DNA of 64,000 nucleotides from Micromonospora peucetia (GTDB taxonomy: Bacteria > Actinomycetota > Actinomycetes > Mycobacteriales > Micromonosporaceae): NCBI RefSeq assembly GCF_900091625.1, contig NZ_FMIC01000002.1, forward strand, positions 6,820,001 through 6,884,000, given 5' to 3'. Below are positions 3,995 to 10,602 of the stretch, piece by piece. Each line of letters opens with the position of its first letter. The stretch's first letter is position 1. The position numbers and the translations under genes were made by a program. The notes below the pieces were generated by a model. The model worked only from the letters and a program-made list of their open reading frames with translations. It was not told the origin of the DNA and did no database searches.

Positions 3995-4468
3995 TCAGCG
4001 GCCGGTGGCGCTCTCGGCGAGCCGGGCCTGGTGCGCCTGGTGCAGCCGGCGCAGGGCGCGGACCCCCTCGACGGCCAGTTCCTTGTCGGCGGCCTGCAGG
4101 GCGACCATCGGCAGCAGGTCGTCGTCGTGCAGCTCCAGGCTGGCCCAGGGCGCACCCCGATCGAAGCGGACCCCCCGTACGACCTCCCACGGCAGCTCGT
4201 ACGAGCCGACGACGTTGCGCACCCGCACCCCGCGCGCGTCCGCCTCGACCCGGGGGCGGGTGAAGATCAGGAAGGCGAGCGCCCCGAGGACGCCGAGACC
4301 GACCATCGCGATCTGGTCACCGCGCTGGAAGCTGCCGTAGCCGTTGCCGGTCGCGCCGCTCAGCGAGGTGGCCACCAGGCTGAACACCACGAACAGCACA
4401 GCCGCCGAGATCCAGCAGACCACCCGGATGCGGTGCGGACGGAGCTGGACGGACTCGATTTCGCTCAC
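3995..4468 (-). CDS. Membrane protein with PH-like domain
   Basis: The protein has 157 residues from the GTG at 4466-4468 (VSEIESVQLRPHRIRV). Two hydrophobic helices (about residues 14-34, IRVVCWISAAVLFVVFSLVA, and 55-72, AMVGLGVLGALAFLIF) precede a small beta domain reading VEADARGVRVRNVVGSYELPWEVVRGVRFDRGAPWASLEL. That order matches the actinobacterial bacterial-PH family of small membrane proteins, whose function is unknown. An upstream in-frame ATG adds 21 residues with no recognisable feature. It ends inside the putative infC promoter region. No catalytic residues are expected. Confidence 0.75.
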   Translation of the reverse strand: MSEIESVQLRPHRIRVVCWISAAVLFVVFSLVATSLSGATGNGYGSFQRGDQIAMVGLGVLGALAFLIFTRPRVEADARGVRVRNVVGSYELPWEVVRGVRFDRGAPWASLELHDDDLLPMVALQAADKELAVEGVRALRRLHQAHQARLAESATGR

Positions 4469-4537
4469 CCCACCAGTCTGCCACCCGCTCCGGGCCGTTC
4501 CCGCGCCGCCACACGTTTCCGACACCGGCACGCCCCG

Positions 4538-5251
4538 TCAGCCGTCCTCGGCCTCCAGCTCGCCCAGTTGCCGCAGGCGGGGCAGGTCGCGAACGGTGAT
4601 CCGGCGATAGTCCGTGTCGACCAGACTCTCCGTGCGCAACTCACGGAGGGCCTTCTGGATGGAGGTCTCGGCGGCGCCGCAGATGCTCGCAAGCTCGGGC
4701 TGCGTGAGCCGCACGTCGATGACGACGCCGTCGCGGCCCTGGCGGCCGTGGGTGCGACAGAGTTCGGCGACGACCCGGGCGACCCTGATCATCACCGGGT
4801 ACGAGGTGAAGTCGATGCGTCGCCGGTTGGACCAGCGCAGCCGGTCCGACACCATCGCCGCCAACTCCAGGGCGGCGTCCGGGTACTCCTTGAGGAACGC
4901 CTTGAACCGGTCGGGCTGGATGACCCGGTAAGTCGCTGGCCCGCAGGTGGTGACACTTGCCGAGCGGGGCCGGTCGTTGAGGGCCGACATCTCGCCGACG
5001 AGGTCACCGCCGACGCGCAGGGCCAGCAGCGCGGACCGCCCGTCCGGGAGAGTCGCGGTGACCTTCGTCAGCCCCTCCTCCAGCAGCACCAGGTGCGACT
5101 CCCGTACGCCCTCGTGGATGACGATCTGTCCGGGCGGGACCCGCCGGCGGACGCCCAACTCCAGCAGGGCGATCCGGACCGGAGGGCCGAGCCGTTGCAG
5201 GAACGTGCCGTAGGGCCAGGTGACGTCGGACAGCTCGGCTGGTCCTCGCAT
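4538..5251 (-). CDS. Crp/Fnr-family cyclic-nucleotide-binding regulator
   Basis: From ATG 5249-5251 this is 237 residues. An N-terminal cyclic-nucleotide-binding beta roll is clear: PPGQIVIHEGVRESHLVLLEEG, then GDLVGEMSALNDRPRSASVTT, the phosphate-binding-cassette region with conserved G-E-x-x-L and R-S-A. A long dimerisation helix follows, then a C-terminal winged HTH (LTQPELASICGAAETSIQKALRELR). It probably binds a nucleotide or small effector and DNA. It is divergent from a nucleotide-cyclase-like gene 350 bp away, suggesting they work together. In-frame codons extend upstream to ATG 5411-5413, which would add 54 residues with a hydrophobic helix (WPPGVLLALVIVQLAVAAAR); I prefer the shorter family-like start but cannot exclude a membrane-anchored form. 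Confidence 0.85.
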   Translation of the reverse strand: MRGPAELSDVTWPYGTFLQRLGPPVRIALLELGVRRRVPPGQIVIHEGVRESHLVLLEEGLTKVTATLPDGRSALLALRVGGDLVGEMSALNDRPRSASVTTCGPATYRVIQPDRFKAFLKEYPDAALELAAMVSDRLRWSNRRRIDFTSYPVMIRVARVVAELCRTHGRQGRDGVVIDVRLTQPELASICGAAETSIQKALRELRTESLVDTDYRRITVRDLPRLRQLGELEAEDG

Positions 5252-5603
5252 CAGCGGTCTCATCCTCCTCGGCCAGCGACAGCCGTCGAAGCGTAGCCGG
5301 CCCTGCGCGTAACGCGATGTCCGCAGACGCCGGGCGGCAGCGACCGCGAGTTGGACGATCACCAACGCCAGCAGGACGCCCGGCGGCCAGCCGACCGCGA
5401 GCAGCAGCTCCATCAGACCGATCCTCATGCGACCAGGACACCGCCTGACCGCGCGCCGGAGACCCGCACAGGAGGGGATGACGCCCTGACGACAGTTCCG
5501 GCGATGCCGTACTTCTACGGGGTTCCGCAGAGCCTGCCTCGGTTCGATGTCTCCTGCGGTGCCCGCCTGTGGGGCGGGTCGGGCGAGGAAGGGCGGCACG
5601 ACG

Positions 5604-6434
5604 ATGCGACATCCCGAGCGACGACTGTTGATATCCGTGGACATGGAGCGGTACAGCCGGCGCACCAACCTCCAGCAGTACGAGGCGCAGCAGCACTTCC
5701 GAGAACTGCTGCACGAGGCCGCCGGCGACGTCGGTCTGAACCGGGTCGCCTGGACGACGCAGCAGGCCGGGGACGGCGAGCTGGCGATCCTTCCCCAGGA
5801 CGTGGCCGAGTCCCGCGTCATCGGCCGGTTCGTACCGGAGCTGAACAGGCGGCTGCGCAGCTACAACAGCAGCCGGGTGCCAGCCGCCCAGATCCGCCTG
5901 CGGGTCGCTGTCCACCAGGGACTCGTCCACCTCGACGGGGCCAACGGCTTCCCCGGCAACGCCGTCGTCTTCGTCTGCCGGCTGTGCGAGGCGAAACCCG
6001 TCAAGCGCGCCCTGGCGGCCTTTCCCGACGCCGGGGTGGCACTGATCGTGTCGGCGGAGATCTACCGCGACGTCGTCACCGAGTACCCGGAGGAGATGCG
6101 TCCGGAGCGGTTCCGGCGGGTCGAGGTCGTCCATCCGGACAAGGGGTTCCAGGAAGACGCGTGGCTCTGCGTCGTGGACGAGGACATGTCCGCCCCGTCG
6201 GCGGCGGAGAACTCGACGCCGACGCCGCCCGCACCACGAAACATGGGGCCCGGTGCGGACCACCGACAGGAGGCGTCGGACTCTCCGTCGACCCGGACAC
6301 CGCGCACGGGCGGCATCCGGACGGGCGACATCCGGGTCGACGGCCAGAACGCGATCGGGCCCGGCGCCACGGCGATCGGCTCCGTCGGCCGCGATCTGAC
6401 CTTCGGCGGCGGACGGGAGGGCCGGGCACGGTGA
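5604..6434 (+). CDS. Class III nucleotidyl-cyclase-like protein with C-terminal glycine-rich motif
   Basis: The product has 276 residues from ATG 5604 (MRHPERRLLIS), with AGGAAGGG about 10 nt upstream. Residues 1-195 follow class III cyclase topology: LLISVDMERYS (first metal Asp position), AGDGELAILP (second metal Asp), IRLRVAVHQGLVHL, GNAVVFVCRLCEAK and VALIVSAEIY. Both metal-site aspartates are present, but the usual transition-state Asn in GxxVN is Val, so activity is doubtful. A disordered Pro/Ser linker (about 205-235) leads to GDIRVDGQNAIGPGATAIG at residues 241-259. A near copy of that motif occurs in the next protein. The stop overlaps the next GTG (GTGA). Similar cyclase-like proteins occur in actinobacterial NTP-dependent conflict systems; the role here is inferred. 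Confidence 0.72.
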   Translation: MRHPERRLLISVDMERYSRRTNLQQYEAQQHFRELLHEAAGDVGLNRVAWTTQQAGDGELAILPQDVAESRVIGRFVPELNRRLRSYNSSRVPAAQIRLRVAVHQGLVHLDGANGFPGNAVVFVCRLCEAKPVKRALAAFPDAGVALIVSAEIYRDVVTEYPEEMRPERFRRVEVVHPDKGFQEDAWLCVVDEDMSAPSAAENSTPTPPAPRNMGPGADHRQEASDSPSTRTPRTGGIRTGDIRVDGQNAIGPGATAIGSVGRDLTFGGGREGRAR

Positions 6435-8710
6435 CTGCACCCGACTTCCCGTACCCGCACGGCGTCGGCGACGACGGCGCAGGCGACCCGGACGGGCACC
6501 GGGACGTCCCCGGCGACGACGGGTACGACCGTCCCGAGGAGGGCCCGGCGGCGACAGGCCCCGACCAGGGTCCACCGGACAGACCGGTGGACCCGGCAGA
6601 GTCGTCGGACGGCGGCGAGGCGGACGAGCCGGAGGAGCCGCTCGACTCGGGAGATGTGATCCGCAGGCTGGCCGATCTGCTCGGCGGTGCCACGATCGGC
6701 CTCGGCGACGTGCGTGTACGGGGGCAGAACGCCACCGGTCACGGCGCCGTCGCGATCGGCACCGTCAATGTCACCACTGCAGGAACCGACGGCACGGGGC
6801 GGATCTGGTACGAGCGTCTGAGCGAGACCGACGTCCGGGAACTGGCGCAGGGGTACGCGCCGACGTCGAGCGACCAGCAACTCGACCGTCACCTCAAGCG
6901 CCGCCACCTGGTGTGCCTGTCCGGCCCATCCTCAAGTGGCCGGTTCACCTCCGCCGTCCTCGCCACCGTCCGCAGGCACGGGCACGACCGCGCCTGCGTC
7001 CTGGGCGCGGAACAGCCCGACGACCTGCTCGGACCGAGCGAACGGTTGCCCGGCGGACGCGGGTACGTGCTCCGGCTCGCGGATACCGCGGCGAACGCCG
7101 TCGACGGGTTCACCCTGGTGGCGCTCGCGGCTCGGGCCGAGGCGACCGGTATGACGCTGATCCTGGTGGGCGATTTCTCCCGGCGCCGTCAGGATCTCGC
7201 CGGCCACGTGGTGGAACATCGGGTGCCGCCCGCGGTGGAGGTGTTCAGGGCGCGACTGCGCCAGCAGCTGACGGGACGATGCGTCGGCTGGTGCCCGGAC
7301 GGCTGCGACGGCATCTGTGTGGAGCGGTATCTCGACGACGGATGCGTCACCCATCCGCTGCTCTCGGCCTACCTCGCCGGCGAGCCCCGTCCGGGCGAGG
7401 TCGTGCCCGTGGTGGAGCTGATCGCCCGATCGGTTCCGCACGGCCCCGCCCTGACCGAGAGGTTGGAGCAGCTACTCCCCCGCCAGTTGCGGGAACGCGC
7501 CACGCAGATCCTCGACATCGGCCGGCACGACGGCCCGGACGGGGTCGACGGTTGGGCTGCCGACCAGGCCCGCGCGTTCCGGCTGGCCTGTGCCGTGCTG
7601 GCCGGGCAGCCGGTGGCGGAGATCCGTCAGGCGGCCGAACGCCTGGCCGGGGCCGACCTCACCGGGATTCCGTCCACCGGTCCCCGGCTGCGCGGCCCGG
7701 ACCTCGACACGCTCCTCGGATCGACGCTGCGCCAGGCCGTCGTCGTGGTCAGCGACGAACGCGCCGCGGGTGGTCAGCGGATCGAATTCGGCACCGGCAG
7801 CGAGCAACTCCGGTCGACGTTGCTGGAGGTCGCCTGGACGGACTGGTGGCTGCCCGGACAGCTGCTCGGCTGGCTGGCGGACCTGGTCCGCTCCGACGTG
7901 CCGGGAGTCCGGCAGGCCGCCGCGGGCGCCATCGGCTGGTCGGCCGGACGGGACGTGCGGGCAGCCCTGGAGACGGTCGGCGACCTGGCCCGGGAACGGC
8001 GGGCGGGCGTCCGACAGGCCGCCGCCATCGTGCTGGTCGCGATGGCGATGCAACCCGGCCTGCGACAGCGCGTGCGGACCGAACTCGACCAGTGGGCGGC
8101 AGGGCCGGCGGCGCACCTACGGGACACCGTCGCCCGGGCGTACGGCCTCGGACTGGCCCGCCTCTGGCCCGACGCCGCCCTGACGCAACTGCGTCTGGTG
8201 GCGCAGGCCCGCATGCAGCGGCGGAACAACTCCGTGGTCCGGGGCCTGGTCGAGGTCTACCGGGACGGTCACGCGGCCACGCTCGTGCCGGAGCTGGTCG
8301 ACTGGACCGCGTCCGAGGACCCGGAGGTGCGGCTGCACGCGGCGCGGACGCTGCGCGTCCTCGCCGACCGGTGGGCGGAGCCGCCCAGGGAGCACTGGCC
8401 GGAGCTGCTGGATCTCGTCCGGCGGCGGATTGTCGGGCCGGGCGACGTCGCCGCGCTGTGGGCCGCGGCGCTGGGCATGCCGCAGACGGCCTACCGATCG
8501 TGGCGGACGCTCGGCTTCTGGCTGAACCGGGCGGACGGCGACCCCGAGGTCGCGGCCCACTGCCTGGCCCTGCTCCGGCACGTGATCGCCGGTCGGCCGC
8601 CGCTGTGCCACCGCCTCGACCACCAGATCCGCCACGTCTGGCGGCCCATCATGCCGCGCAACGACCTGCTCGACGCCGTACACGCACTCATCGACGAGGA
8701 CCTGTCATGA
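6431..8710 (+). CDS. Degenerate P-loop (inactive-STAND-like) protein with HEAT-like repeats
   Basis: GTG start at 6431 overlaps the upstream stop; GGGAGG lies 10 nt before it; 759 residues. An acidic disordered N-terminus (1-80) is followed by GDVRVRGQNATGHGAVAIG (92-110), matching the motif in the preceding protein. A P-loop-like segment SGPSSSGRFTSA (about 164-175) has Arg in place of the Walker A Lys and Phe in place of Ser/Thr; TLILVGDFS (242-250) looks like Walker B. Five cysteines lie at 284, 288, 292, 296 and 305 (C-x3-C-x3-C-x3-C-x8-C). Residues from about 480 onward are helical repeats (PGVRQAAAGAIGWS, AGVRQAAAIVLVAM, PEVRLHAARTLRVLA) of HEAT type. This layout resembles inactive STAND scaffold proteins of conflict systems. 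No enzyme activity can be assigned. Confidence 0.68.
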   Translation: MTAPDFPYPHGVGDDGAGDPDGHRDVPGDDGYDRPEEGPAATGPDQGPPDRPVDPAESSDGGEADEPEEPLDSGDVIRRLADLLGGATIGLGDVRVRGQNATGHGAVAIGTVNVTTAGTDGTGRIWYERLSETDVRELAQGYAPTSSDQQLDRHLKRRHLVCLSGPSSSGRFTSAVLATVRRHGHDRACVLGAEQPDDLLGPSERLPGGRGYVLRLADTAANAVDGFTLVALAARAEATGMTLILVGDFSRRRQDLAGHVVEHRVPPAVEVFRARLRQQLTGRCVGWCPDGCDGICVERYLDDGCVTHPLLSAYLAGEPRPGEVVPVVELIARSVPHGPALTERLEQLLPRQLRERATQILDIGRHDGPDGVDGWAADQARAFRLACAVLAGQPVAEIRQAAERLAGADLTGIPSTGPRLRGPDLDTLLGSTLRQAVVVVSDERAAGGQRIEFGTGSEQLRSTLLEVAWTDWWLPGQLLGWLADLVRSDVPGVRQAAAGAIGWSAGRDVRAALETVGDLARERRAGVRQAAAIVLVAMAMQPGLRQRVRTELDQWAAGPAAHLRDTVARAYGLGLARLWPDAALTQLRLVAQARMQRRNNSVVRGLVEVYRDGHAATLVPELVDWTASEDPEVRLHAARTLRVLADRWAEPPREHWPELLDLVRRRIVGPGDVAALWAAALGMPQTAYRSWRTLGFWLNRADGDPEVAAHCLALLRHVIAGRPPLCHRLDHQIRHVWRPIMPRNDLLDAVHALIDEDLS

Positions 8711-9537
8711 CCACTCACCCCACCGGGCCTCCCACCACGGGAGCGTCCGTGCCGTCACAGCCGGAGCGCCGCCGCTGGTGGCACGCCTTCCTCCCGCCGG
8801 CCGAACCGGTCACCCTCTTCCCGCCGCCGGCGCCACCGGTCCCCAGCACGGTGACGTTCCGGCACGACGTGCCGCAGCCGATCCTGGTCCCGGCGTGGGG
8901 AGACGCCTTCGACTTCCGCCTGCACGCCGTCTACACCTGGACCGCGCAGAACATGGCCTACGAGGAGCTGCGGCTGCGGGCCGAGCGGCATCTCGCCTGG
9001 GCGGGCGGCATCGTCCGAGATCGGGCGGTGGACCTGGCCCGGCAGTACGAGCCGCACCGCTCACACGACCTGGAGCGGGCGCTGAACGACCGGCTGACCG
9101 GTCAGCGCTGGCCCCGGGAGGGTTCCCAGCCGCACTTCTGGGTGCAGGTGCGGGTCAGCCCGGACGAGCGGGTGCGGGAGCGGCTACGGCCGTACTGGGA
9201 GGAACGGATCAAGCTCGAATGCGACCACGAGCTGCAGAAGATCAGGGCCCAGCAGGCGGACGAGTTGACGCGCCGGTGGTGCACCGTGCTGCAGAGCCTC
9301 GAGGACGATCCGGTGACCGCGCACGCGGCCCGGCTGACCGGTGAGCAGTTCGCCGAGGTCTTCCGTCGCTATGTGCAGGAGCGTCGGGAGACGGTGCCGG
9401 ACCTGGTGGCGCTGCTACGCGAGGCCGTACGTGGACACGGCGACCTCGGCATGGGGCCGTCGGAGTACACCGAGGCGTGGGACGCGGCGATCCGGACGTA
9501 CGAGCGACGCCACGGGCTCTCCGATCGGGTGAACTGA
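8707..9537 (+). CDS. Uncharacterised protein, third gene of the cassette
   Basis: The product has 276 residues; its ATG overlaps the preceding stop (ATGA), so the three genes are translationally coupled. The N-terminus is Pro-rich (PPAEPVTLFPPPAPPVP), followed by a beta-containing segment (ILVPAWGDAFDFRLHAVYTW) and long charged helices rich in Arg/Glu (ERIKLECDHELQKIRAQQADELTRRW). No signal peptide or membrane helix is visible. The pattern of an amphipathic beta segment followed by a coiled helix loosely recalls SPFH/band-7 proteins, but I do not recognise a family. Its position suggests an effector or accessory part of the cyclase/P-loop system. Confidence 0.6.
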   Translation: MTTHPTGPPTTGASVPSQPERRRWWHAFLPPAEPVTLFPPPAPPVPSTVTFRHDVPQPILVPAWGDAFDFRLHAVYTWTAQNMAYEELRLRAERHLAWAGGIVRDRAVDLARQYEPHRSHDLERALNDRLTGQRWPREGSQPHFWVQVRVSPDERVRERLRPYWEERIKLECDHELQKIRAQQADELTRRWCTVLQSLEDDPVTAHAARLTGEQFAEVFRRYVQERRETVPDLVALLREAVRGHGDLGMGPSEYTEAWDAAIRTYERRHGLSDRVN

Positions 9538-9540
9538 CGG

Positions 9541-9596
9541 CCGCGACCGTCGGATCATCGGGGCCTACTTCGGCGTCGATGATCCGGCGGTCGCGG
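9541..9596. terminator. 20-bp inverted repeat between convergent genes
   Basis: Arms 9541-9560 (ccgcgaccgtcggatcatcg) and 9577-9596 pair at 19 of 20 positions around a 16-nt loop. It begins 3 nt past the stop of the plus-strand cassette and overlaps the end of the minus-strand transporter gene, so it can stop transcription from both sides. Confidence 0.75.
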
Positions 9597-10602
9597 CGGG
9601 AACTGCCGGACCATCGCTGGCGGGCGGGGCGGCGCGGGTGCTCCGGCGGCCGGTACCTCGGCCGGCGAGCAGGGCGGCCAGCAGGGTGAGCAGCGCCCCG
9701 GCGAGCACCGGCAGCCGCAGACCGGGGCCACCGGGCAGCAGCGCGTCCAGCAGCAGGGCGCCGCCCAGTTGCCCGGCGACCAGGGCGAGCCCGGTCCGCA
9801 GCACGCCGACCGCCGGGACCCCGACCAGCAGGGCGGCCACGATGACGACGCCGAGCAGGCCACCGGTGTAGAGATACCAGTCGCCCGGCCAGGTCGGGGC
9901 CGGCCCGGTGAGGGCGCCGGCCAGCCCCGCCACCAGCAGCACGACGGGCGTGGCCGTGGCGAAGTTGACCACCATCCCGGCGGCGGCCGAACCGGCGGCG
10001 GAGACCCGCGCGTTCAGCGCGGACTGGAGCGCGACTGCCAGCCCACCGGCCACGGCGAGCAGGACCAGACCGAGGGCGAGGTCGCCGACGGGCTGGCCGA
10101 GCTGGGCCAGGGCCACGGCGGTCACGCCGAGCAGCGCCCCGGCCACGCGGGCCCGGGTGAGCGCCAGCCGCCCCACCGGGGCCAGCCCGGCCCGGTCCAC
10201 GGCCAGCCCGCCGAGGCTGCCCCCGGCGACCTGGGCGATGGTGAAGACGGCCACCCCGAGCACCGGCACGATGTACACACTGAGCAGCACGATGGCCGCG
10301 CCGCCGAGCCCGCCCAGGTACGCCCACCAGGGCAGCCGGGCCCGGCGCAGCGCGACCAGGCCGGTCCGCGCCGACGGCAGCGCCAACGCCCCGAGGCCGA
10401 CCAGCAGTGCCCCGCCGAGGTTGTTGACCACCGCGCCCAGGGTCGCGTTGCCGGCCCGCTCGCCCAGCTCGGCGTTGACCGTGCCCTGGACCGCCGAGGC
10501 GACCCCGGCGAGGGTGACCACGGTCAACGCCGCCCACGGCGGCAGACCGCGCGAGACCGGGGGCGACGCCGGGCCGCCCGCCGCCACGGGAGGGCGTCTC
10601 AC
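9565..10602 (-). CDS. DMT-superfamily (YdcZ-type) membrane transporter
   Basis: The product has 345 residues and about ten hydrophobic helices (for example ALTVVTLAGVASAVQGTVNA, AIVLLSVYIVPVLGVAVF, LLGVVIVAALLVGVPAVGVL). The internal duplication, with GTVNAELG in the first half and QSALNARVS in the second and glycine-rich helices such as NNLGGALLVGLGAL and GQLGGALLLDALLP, is the pattern of DMT transporters of the DUF606/YdcZ group. The substrate is unknown. The GTG start at 10600-10602 overlaps the hisG stop as GTGA, so it is coupled to hisG. Both termini are disordered and Pro/Ala-rich. Confidence 0.8.
   Translation of the reverse strand: MRRPPVAAGGPASPPVSRGLPPWAALTVVTLAGVASAVQGTVNAELGERAGNATLGAVVNNLGGALLVGLGALALPSARTGLVALRRARLPWWAYLGGLGGAAIVLLSVYIVPVLGVAVFTIAQVAGGSLGGLAVDRAGLAPVGRLALTRARVAGALLGVTAVALAQLGQPVGDLALGLVLLAVAGGLAVALQSALNARVSAAGSAAAGMVVNFATATPVVLLVAGLAGALTGPAPTWPGDWYLYTGGLLGVVIVAALLVGVPAVGVLRTGLALVAGQLGGALLLDALLPGGPGLRLPVLAGALLTLLAALLAGRGTGRRSTRAAPPASDGPAVPAATAGSSTPK

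Follow-up and report, generated by a model that had tools for sequence, protein, structure and literature searches.

Bacterial amyloid signalling sequences (BASS) are described in passages of PMC7889193 as motifs found at the N-terminus of an NLR protein and at the C-terminus of an effector encoded by the adjacent gene, and section 3.3 of PMC12261475 uses such grounds to class a new fungal pair of the amyloid-signalling kind as a bona fide motif. The effector is usually a Bell protein; others are less frequent, CHAT and TIR being the exceptions met in the relevant parts of PMC7889193, PMC8086366, and PMC12261475. Parts of PMC8195603 describe cyclase domains joined to STAND proteins by a shared adaptor domain, and parts of PMC7159879 describe cyclase domains, and Crp-like regulators beside some systems, among related conflict systems. 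Here, we analysed a 64,000-nucleotide stretch of Micromonospora peucetia (assembly GCF_900091625.1, contig NZ_FMIC01000002.1, positions 6,820,001 to 6,884,000 of the forward strand; hereafter the window), in which adjacent genes encode a class III nucleotidyl cyclase-like protein and a STAND-like P-loop protein with HEAT repeats (hereafter the STAND protein) that share a 21-residue motif. A first-pass annotation made from the letters of the window had likened the pair to BASS; the gene order and the motif positions are those published for BASS in the passages cited from PMC7889193.

The cyclase-like protein (276 amino acids, 5604..6434, plus strand) consists of a core (residues 1-195, 5604..6188) followed by a disordered C-terminal linker and the motif, and the STAND protein (759 amino acids) is encoded on the same strand at 6431..8710. 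Nucleotides 6324-6386 encode GDIRVDGQNAIGPGATAIGSV (cyclase residues 241-261) and nucleotides 6704-6766 encode GDVRVRGQNATGHGAVAIGTV (STAND residues 92-112), both on the plus strand; we delimit the C-terminal copy as residues 238-261 (6315..6386), around the core of 241-261 given in the first-pass annotation. The reported identity of the two copies at 15 of 21 residues was borne out by translation, and comparison of the cyclase tail with the N-terminus of the partner gave a z score of 8.4, with 0 of 1000 shuffles scoring as high. At the DNA level 47 of 63 bases were identical, and the same codon was used at just 10 of the 15 identical residues, indicating that the likeness lies at the protein level and reflects selection on the protein; a DNA repeat as the source of the match was ruled out by these codon differences. 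When the genome was searched with a 29-residue motif, both window copies were recovered (E = 6.6e-14 and 0.0012). Two further matches, at E = 1.5 and 1.9, were unconvincing as true copies: the first, read on the matched strand, sits in what we take to be an AMP-binding enzyme, and the second sits in an arginine-rich frame.

Both copies lay within predicted disorder and outside any globular fold in the two AlphaFold2 models, in agreement with the surroundings described by the annotation. The predicted local distance difference test score (pLDDT) was below 50 for STAND residues 87-122, and its block means were 44-56 for cyclase residues 211-276. Conservation was measured as the mean majority fraction per alignment column. 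In 35 aligned STAND sequences it was 0.84 for residues 92-112 and 0.29 for residues 1-66, and V96, G98, N100, A101, G103, A108, and G110 were invariant. For the cyclase, residues 237-263 reached 0.78 and residues 196-236 reached 0.34 when the first 18 of the 53 rows were taken; with all 53, the values were 0.46 and 0.28. Thus, in the homologues, a conserved motif stands between variable linkers. The consensus pattern was detected in 65 of 68 listed STAND homologues and in 75 of 120 listed cyclase homologues, including 74 of the closest 79; the other five comprised two proteins with a variant motif and three short proteins that stop before it. Compared with the linkers, the motifs of the 33 matching loci (see below) were rich in G, N, and I and poor in P, L, E, and K. 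Residue frequencies from pattern-selected motifs are partly set by the search pattern, and the 35-sequence alignment was relied on instead.

We then compared the partners across loci. A search of 150 genomes from the family to which the window belongs detected the cyclase (cut-off E ≤ 1e-5) in 80, with up to nine copies per genome. Of 140 cyclase places, 80 of the 139 besides the window's own were taken, giving 81 loci with the window. A pair was accepted when the next gene started within -30 to +20 bases and encoded 650-830 amino acids; three more pairs, those of L042, L055, and L082, were chosen by hand once their sequences had been seen. In total 43 pairs were compared, the window included, and 38 of the 81 loci, having no next gene at the set position and length, were left out. 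The cyclase tail was aligned with the first 170 residues of the partner, with proline/alanine linkers masked, and p was obtained by shuffling. The tail resembled the N-terminus of its own partner in 33 of the 43 pairs (p ≤ 0.01; median z 7.4), or in 30 of 40 without the hand-added pairs, so that the motif proved present in homologous adjacent pairs, where the first-pass annotation had proposed to look for it. Among the partners of unlike loci, its own partner ranked first for 28 of the 43 pairs when compared by row and for 27 when compared by column. Two controls on the 40 rule-chosen loci gave no case at p ≤ 0.01, neither when the STAND C-terminus was compared with the following gene (0/40) nor when the cyclase tail was compared with the gene after the STAND gene (0/40), which was a fourth-gene homologue in 26 of these loci. 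A rerun with another seed again left both controls without a case at 0.01; at 0.05 the first had one case and the second none. An earlier unmasked version had placed 26 of 43 pairs at its floor of 0.005, and an earlier mask that covered part of the motif had left 29 of 43 at p ≤ 0.01, with a mean score of 45.2 for matched and 22.7 for mismatched pairs.

The matched copies can be quite different from one locus to another, as in L040 (QAQSIQNVYGGAHAETINFG with EAQTITNIFGGVHAGAANFG), L060 (IGGHAKVGGGIAGGDIHVSF with IRGHAHVGGGIAGRDIIVHY), L070 (GAIFTGSVSVGNGGRLAGRDF with GAVFTGSVGVQGGGQLAGRDF), and L090 (QIGGVGAIGTGNAVSI with RIGGVGAVGMGNTIKI). Between L088 and L090 the distance was 0.27 for the cyclase core and 0.67 and 0.68 for the motif copies, and each copy still fitted its own partner. 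A partial Mantel test gave r values of 0.47 (33 loci) and 0.61 (23 loci), which provide no independent evidence because the loci were picked for matching. A phylum-wide scan of 396 genomes detected the cyclase (E ≤ 1e-10) in 8, that of the window included, and supplied ten further loci, L115-L124, of which L119 came from the window's genus. Four loci of another family within the class had a clear shared motif (L124, z 12.8; L120, z 9.1; L116, z 7.8; L117, z 7.0) and L123 a moderate match (z 4.5), these values being somewhat inflated by the choice of the best among several downstream frames; the other five showed no match or had too little flank (about 1.5 kb) for a judgement. Since the motif occurs in homologous pairs, lies outside globular folds, and is matched locus by locus, a homotypic module that couples the two proteins is the best reading and, as far as sequence comparison can tell, a well-supported one.

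The cyclase assignment came from structure. Pfam gave no match for the window protein and no cyclase family among the matches of 53 homologues, PADLOC gave no match for it, an NCBIfam scan returned no matches, and no relevant match came from profile searches of PDB sequences with the alignments of the cyclase and of the STAND protein. The AlphaFold2 model had a pLDDT of 82.7, with block means of 80-98 over residues 1-190. The 50 PDB matches listed by Foldseek were all class III cyclases or proteins with such a domain (best 2bw7, E = 3.9e-8), showing a class III nucleotidyl cyclase fold in the model of the first protein. The canonical catalytic positions are our own assignment from the general sequence pattern. 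On that assignment, the metal Asp positions D13 and D57 were retained in 79 and 80 of the 81 loci, respectively, and Arg126 in 79. The canonical Asn position is V122 in the window and V or I across its clade, and 17 of 81 loci have N there; the base-Lys position is Gln53 in the window and Q in 61 of 81, and the base-reading pair is Gln/Gly. Of the full catalytic set (two Asp, the Lys/Asp pair, Asn, and Arg), only the two Asp and the Arg were kept, and many other polar residues were invariant in the 53 aligned homologues.

In the AlphaFold2 model of the STAND protein, an NTPase-like domain (residues 126-260, 6806..7210, plus strand) with the P-loop sequence VCLSGPSSSGRFTS is followed by helices, an H-E-E-H element at approximately residues 422-472, and HEAT-like helical repeats (residues 458-758, 7802..8704, plus strand). 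SAMD9, Avs3, and AVAST5 were modest structure matches in Foldseek and VIA-align, and PADLOC gave one weak HEAT match. No plant- or animal-type NLR was among the 50 VIA-align matches listed for the model, which does not exclude families outside that list. Overall, the second protein resembles a STAND (NLR-like) protein in which a P-loop domain is followed by HEAT repeats, and its NLR-like nature is likely. One homologue from the genus (G548) aligned as two pieces within one open frame. Residues 284-296 (7280..7318, plus strand) form a four-cysteine cluster, C-x3-C-x3-C-x3-C, which was detected in 63 of 68 close STAND homologues; a looser form was present in L069, L080, L081, L084, L087, and L098-L100, and the cluster was absent from L083, L086, and L088-L093. 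It is possibly a zinc or iron-sulphur site and perhaps provides a redox input.

The first-pass annotation had treated the module as two proteins. The pair itself stood, but a divergently encoded Crp-family regulator and a fourth gene had been left out, and both belong to one unit with the cyclase and STAND genes. The regulator (4538..5296, minus strand; start codon uncertain) has a cyclic-nucleotide-binding domain and a Crp helix-turn-helix (PF00027, cNMP_binding, E = 2.9e-16; PF13545, HTH_Crp_2, E = 9.2e-13; scanned over 4541-5608, including an upstream extension). Of the 80 other loci, 45 contained a Crp homologue. Counting the window, the gene lay upstream in divergent orientation at 27 of 81 loci, and most others were upstream on the same strand. 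Its pocket positions were conserved as Glu in 42 of 46 and Arg in 45 of 46. No conserved palindromes were found upstream of the cyclase in 15 loci, three of which could not be anchored. The fourth gene (276 amino acids, 8707..9537, plus strand) is without a known domain, having no convincing Pfam match, and it follows the cyclase and STAND genes head to tail, each junction being a 4-base overlap. Its homologue was present in 25 of the 80 other loci, always with a window-type STAND gene. A Band 7/SPFH-like fold had been suspected from its sequence, and no Band 7 family was among the matches of the 25 homologues; two of the 25 weakly matched fvmX5 (best E = 0.0015), which belongs to FtsH ternary systems.

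The limits of the unit were defined by comparison within the genus. Of 101 genomes, 22 had a STAND orthologue (matches of at least 52% identity). It never lay farther than about 13 kb from infC when positions were compared by eye, and infC and hisG were present in all 101. Genome G617, from a close relative, was without the Crp, cyclase, STAND, and fourth genes, and the matching parts of its two flanking genes were 83 bases apart, whereas G625 contained all four genes between flanks matching those of G617. The absence of exactly these four genes from one genome and their presence in the other define the boundaries of the unit and show that it is dispensable. The infC gene of G617 had the highest score after the window's own, at 98% identity; that of G564, where the STAND gene is present, was likewise 98% identical. 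The distance from the unit to infC was about 3 kb in the window and 7-13 kb in most other genomes carrying the STAND gene, and this difference implies that the unit has moved locally inside a conserved region. Within positions 3995-10602 of the window (compare L125), the four-gene unit is flanked by a gene for a 178-amino-acid membrane-protein-like product and by a transporter-like gene adjoining hisG.

Some cyclase relatives had other neighbours. In L055 (4849-5544) the partner is just 232 amino acids long, has a weak EAD10 match (E = 0.014), and carries the motif of the cyclase tail, a small partner replacing the STAND protein. The gene directly after the cyclase relative in L053, L059, L062, and L104 starts with YALLVGIDxY, presumably like a caspase-family peptidase; these loci had no obvious common tail motif, and p was computed for L053 alone (0.44). 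The cyclase tail of L036 (5669-5760) reads NSVQVNHGNVVQARDIHGGVVMG, and the one pattern scanned was found once in this locus. We take the start of the gene after it for that of a TIR domain, and the tail may resemble motifs of Streptomyces NB-ARC proteins.

Taken together, we lean towards a four-gene signalling unit in which a triggered STAND receptor templates assembly of the cyclase by the shared motif and the nucleotide product acts through Crp. The STAND/HEAT protein, by analogy with its likely family, would be the receptor, the HEAT repeats meeting a trigger that leads to oligomerisation. This would gather the disordered N-terminal motifs and nucleate an ordered, probably cross-beta (amyloid-signalling-like) assembly, into which the near-identical C-terminal motif of the cyclase would be recruited, as the locus-by-locus matching suggests. 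Class III cyclases work as dimers, so bringing the cyclase domains together could switch the enzyme on. Linkage and the conserved pocket point to the divergently encoded Crp-type regulator as the probable reader of the product, and the different motifs on paralogous units would prevent cross-talk between parallel units. The first-pass annotation had proposed that the motif couples sensor to scaffold: the coupling is supported by the matching, but the roles are probably reversed, with the STAND/HEAT protein as receptor and the cyclase as responder.

Several observations weigh against this proposal. The Walker A motif of the STAND protein is G-x4-G-R and not G-x4-G-K; the lysine is replaced by Arg in the window and in all window-type partners in which the pattern was found, Lys being present in L037 and L040 and the pattern being undetected in L069, L079, L091, and L098. 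Matches to nSTAND3 were obtained for 8 of 18 relatives, every one below the Pfam cut-off, and none for the window protein, and by fold the NTPase part is equally near to a STAND and to an AAA+ protein, TRIP13 (AAA+) having matched just as high. Ten of the 43 pairs missed p = 0.01 (L038, L044, L047, L053, L064, L069, L073, L084, L096, and L100); L047, L096, and L100 lay between 0.01 and 0.05, and the failure of L084 was a masking loss (p = 0.001 under the earlier mask). Among mismatched unlike pairs, 27 of 300 sampled from 1500 also reached p ≤ 0.01, implying a weak general pattern common to motifs across loci. No exact TGTGA-N4-8-TCACA site occurs in the window. Finally, the cyclase of the window clade may be inactive or make something else, because the transition-state Asn and the base-reading residues are not kept.

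The last point is the core of a rival account in which a cyclase domain devoid of catalytic activity binds nucleotide as a brake or scaffold, Crp reading another nucleotide; it fits either reading of the motif. The V or I at the Asn position and the Gln/Gly at the base-reading Lys/Asp positions speak for it, and inactive cyclase domains are noted in some conflict systems in parts of Kaur et al. 2020 (PMC7159879). On the other side, decay looks unlikely, for the two metal Asp positions and the Arg persist in 79-80 of 81 loci, and the 53 homologues share many other polar residues without variation. We regard a dead cyclase as possible, yet on the unlikely side.

As for the motif, chance or low-complexity similarity might be suspected of two disordered, glycine-rich regions, but it is refuted by the z score of the window pair, by the 33 of 43 significant pairs beside two controls of 0/40, and by the conservation of the motif between variable linkers, and we give it next to no credence. 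The motifs could instead bind each other, or form a beta-arch or short beta-solenoid complex, without amyloid-type templating, as a stoichiometric docking tag. Locus-by-locus matching would fit any homotypic contact, this one included; however, near-identical copies, short G/N-rich disorder, and a motif at the receptor N-terminus and the effector C-terminus are published traits of amyloid signalling, and docking pairs are usually complementary rather than identical, which leaves a docking tag unlikely. It is also conceivable that both motifs are ligands of a common third partner or a localisation tag and make no mutual contact. Identical tags in one unit would match per locus in that case too if the third partner changed, but the motif differs among many paralogous units, and the gene after the STAND gene, which is the only such candidate that the control covers, has an N-terminus unlike the cyclase tail (0/40); we consider this account improbable.

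If a STAND receptor does template cyclase assembly, these loci might form a second-messenger branch of amyloid-type bacterial immune signalling, in which NLR-like receptors with diversified, locus-specific, prion-like motifs activate a cyclase whose product reprograms transcription via Crp instead of causing pore-forming death, with dozens of insulated pairs across Micromonosporaceae and other filamentous actinobacteria. We put this wider proposal forward tentatively and hold it to be doubtful as it stands. It offers a testable role for genes whose homologues are named hypothetical or HEAT proteins, and the family provides dozens of natural matched and mismatched motif pairs for tests of assembly specificity.

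Among known systems, STAND conflict systems with effector-associated domains (EADs) resemble this unit in combining a STAND NTPase with a separate enzyme, infrequently a cyclic-nucleotide cyclase, that bears the same adaptor, as set out in parts of PMC7159879 and PMC8195603; they too occur in multicellular bacteria, and Crp-like regulators are linked to some related systems. In these accounts, however, the adaptor is a domain (EAD or Death-like), whereas here it is a disordered motif of about 20 residues, and the MoxR/vWA or FtsH parts mentioned there are not among the four genes, the only place where they were looked for. The Avs (AVAST) STAND anti-phage receptors are represented by Avs3 and the AVAST5 filament among the Foldseek and VIA-align matches of the STAND protein. 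Pycsar likewise combines a class III cyclase fold (the Anabaena uridylate cyclase was among the Foldseek matches listed) with a cyclic-nucleotide-binding protein. The Pycsar effector of this kind is a membrane or TIR protein, whereas the binding partner in the window is a Crp-type regulator and not a dedicated death effector, a STAND-like protein is added, and PADLOC did not match the cyclase.

The closest likeness is to the NLR/Bell pairs of BASS. As far as the published passages go, both combine an NLR-like protein that carries a motif of about 20-25 amino acids at its N-terminus with the product of an adjacent or overlapping gene that carries the motif at its C-terminus, both occur in filamentous actinobacteria, and both comprise many motif families in which each pair matches; in the window pair the motif also lies in predicted disorder. 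Membership of BASS3, judged by one published peptide, was not supported by a consistent match (z > 3 in 2 of 86 sequences). The pairing of a cyclase and a STAND protein by such a motif was not described in the literature searched, though Dyrka et al. 2020, the primary BASS paper, or its supplements may mention it. The window pair differs in that its effector has a class III nucleotidyl cyclase fold and not a Bell domain, that the unit includes a Crp-type regulator, and that amyloid formation is here putative. Bacterial amyloid signalling has so far been known chiefly from pairs of a receptor and a predicted pore-former; if our proposal is true, this large and diversifying family, with a cyclase and its regulator, would provide a second kind of output.

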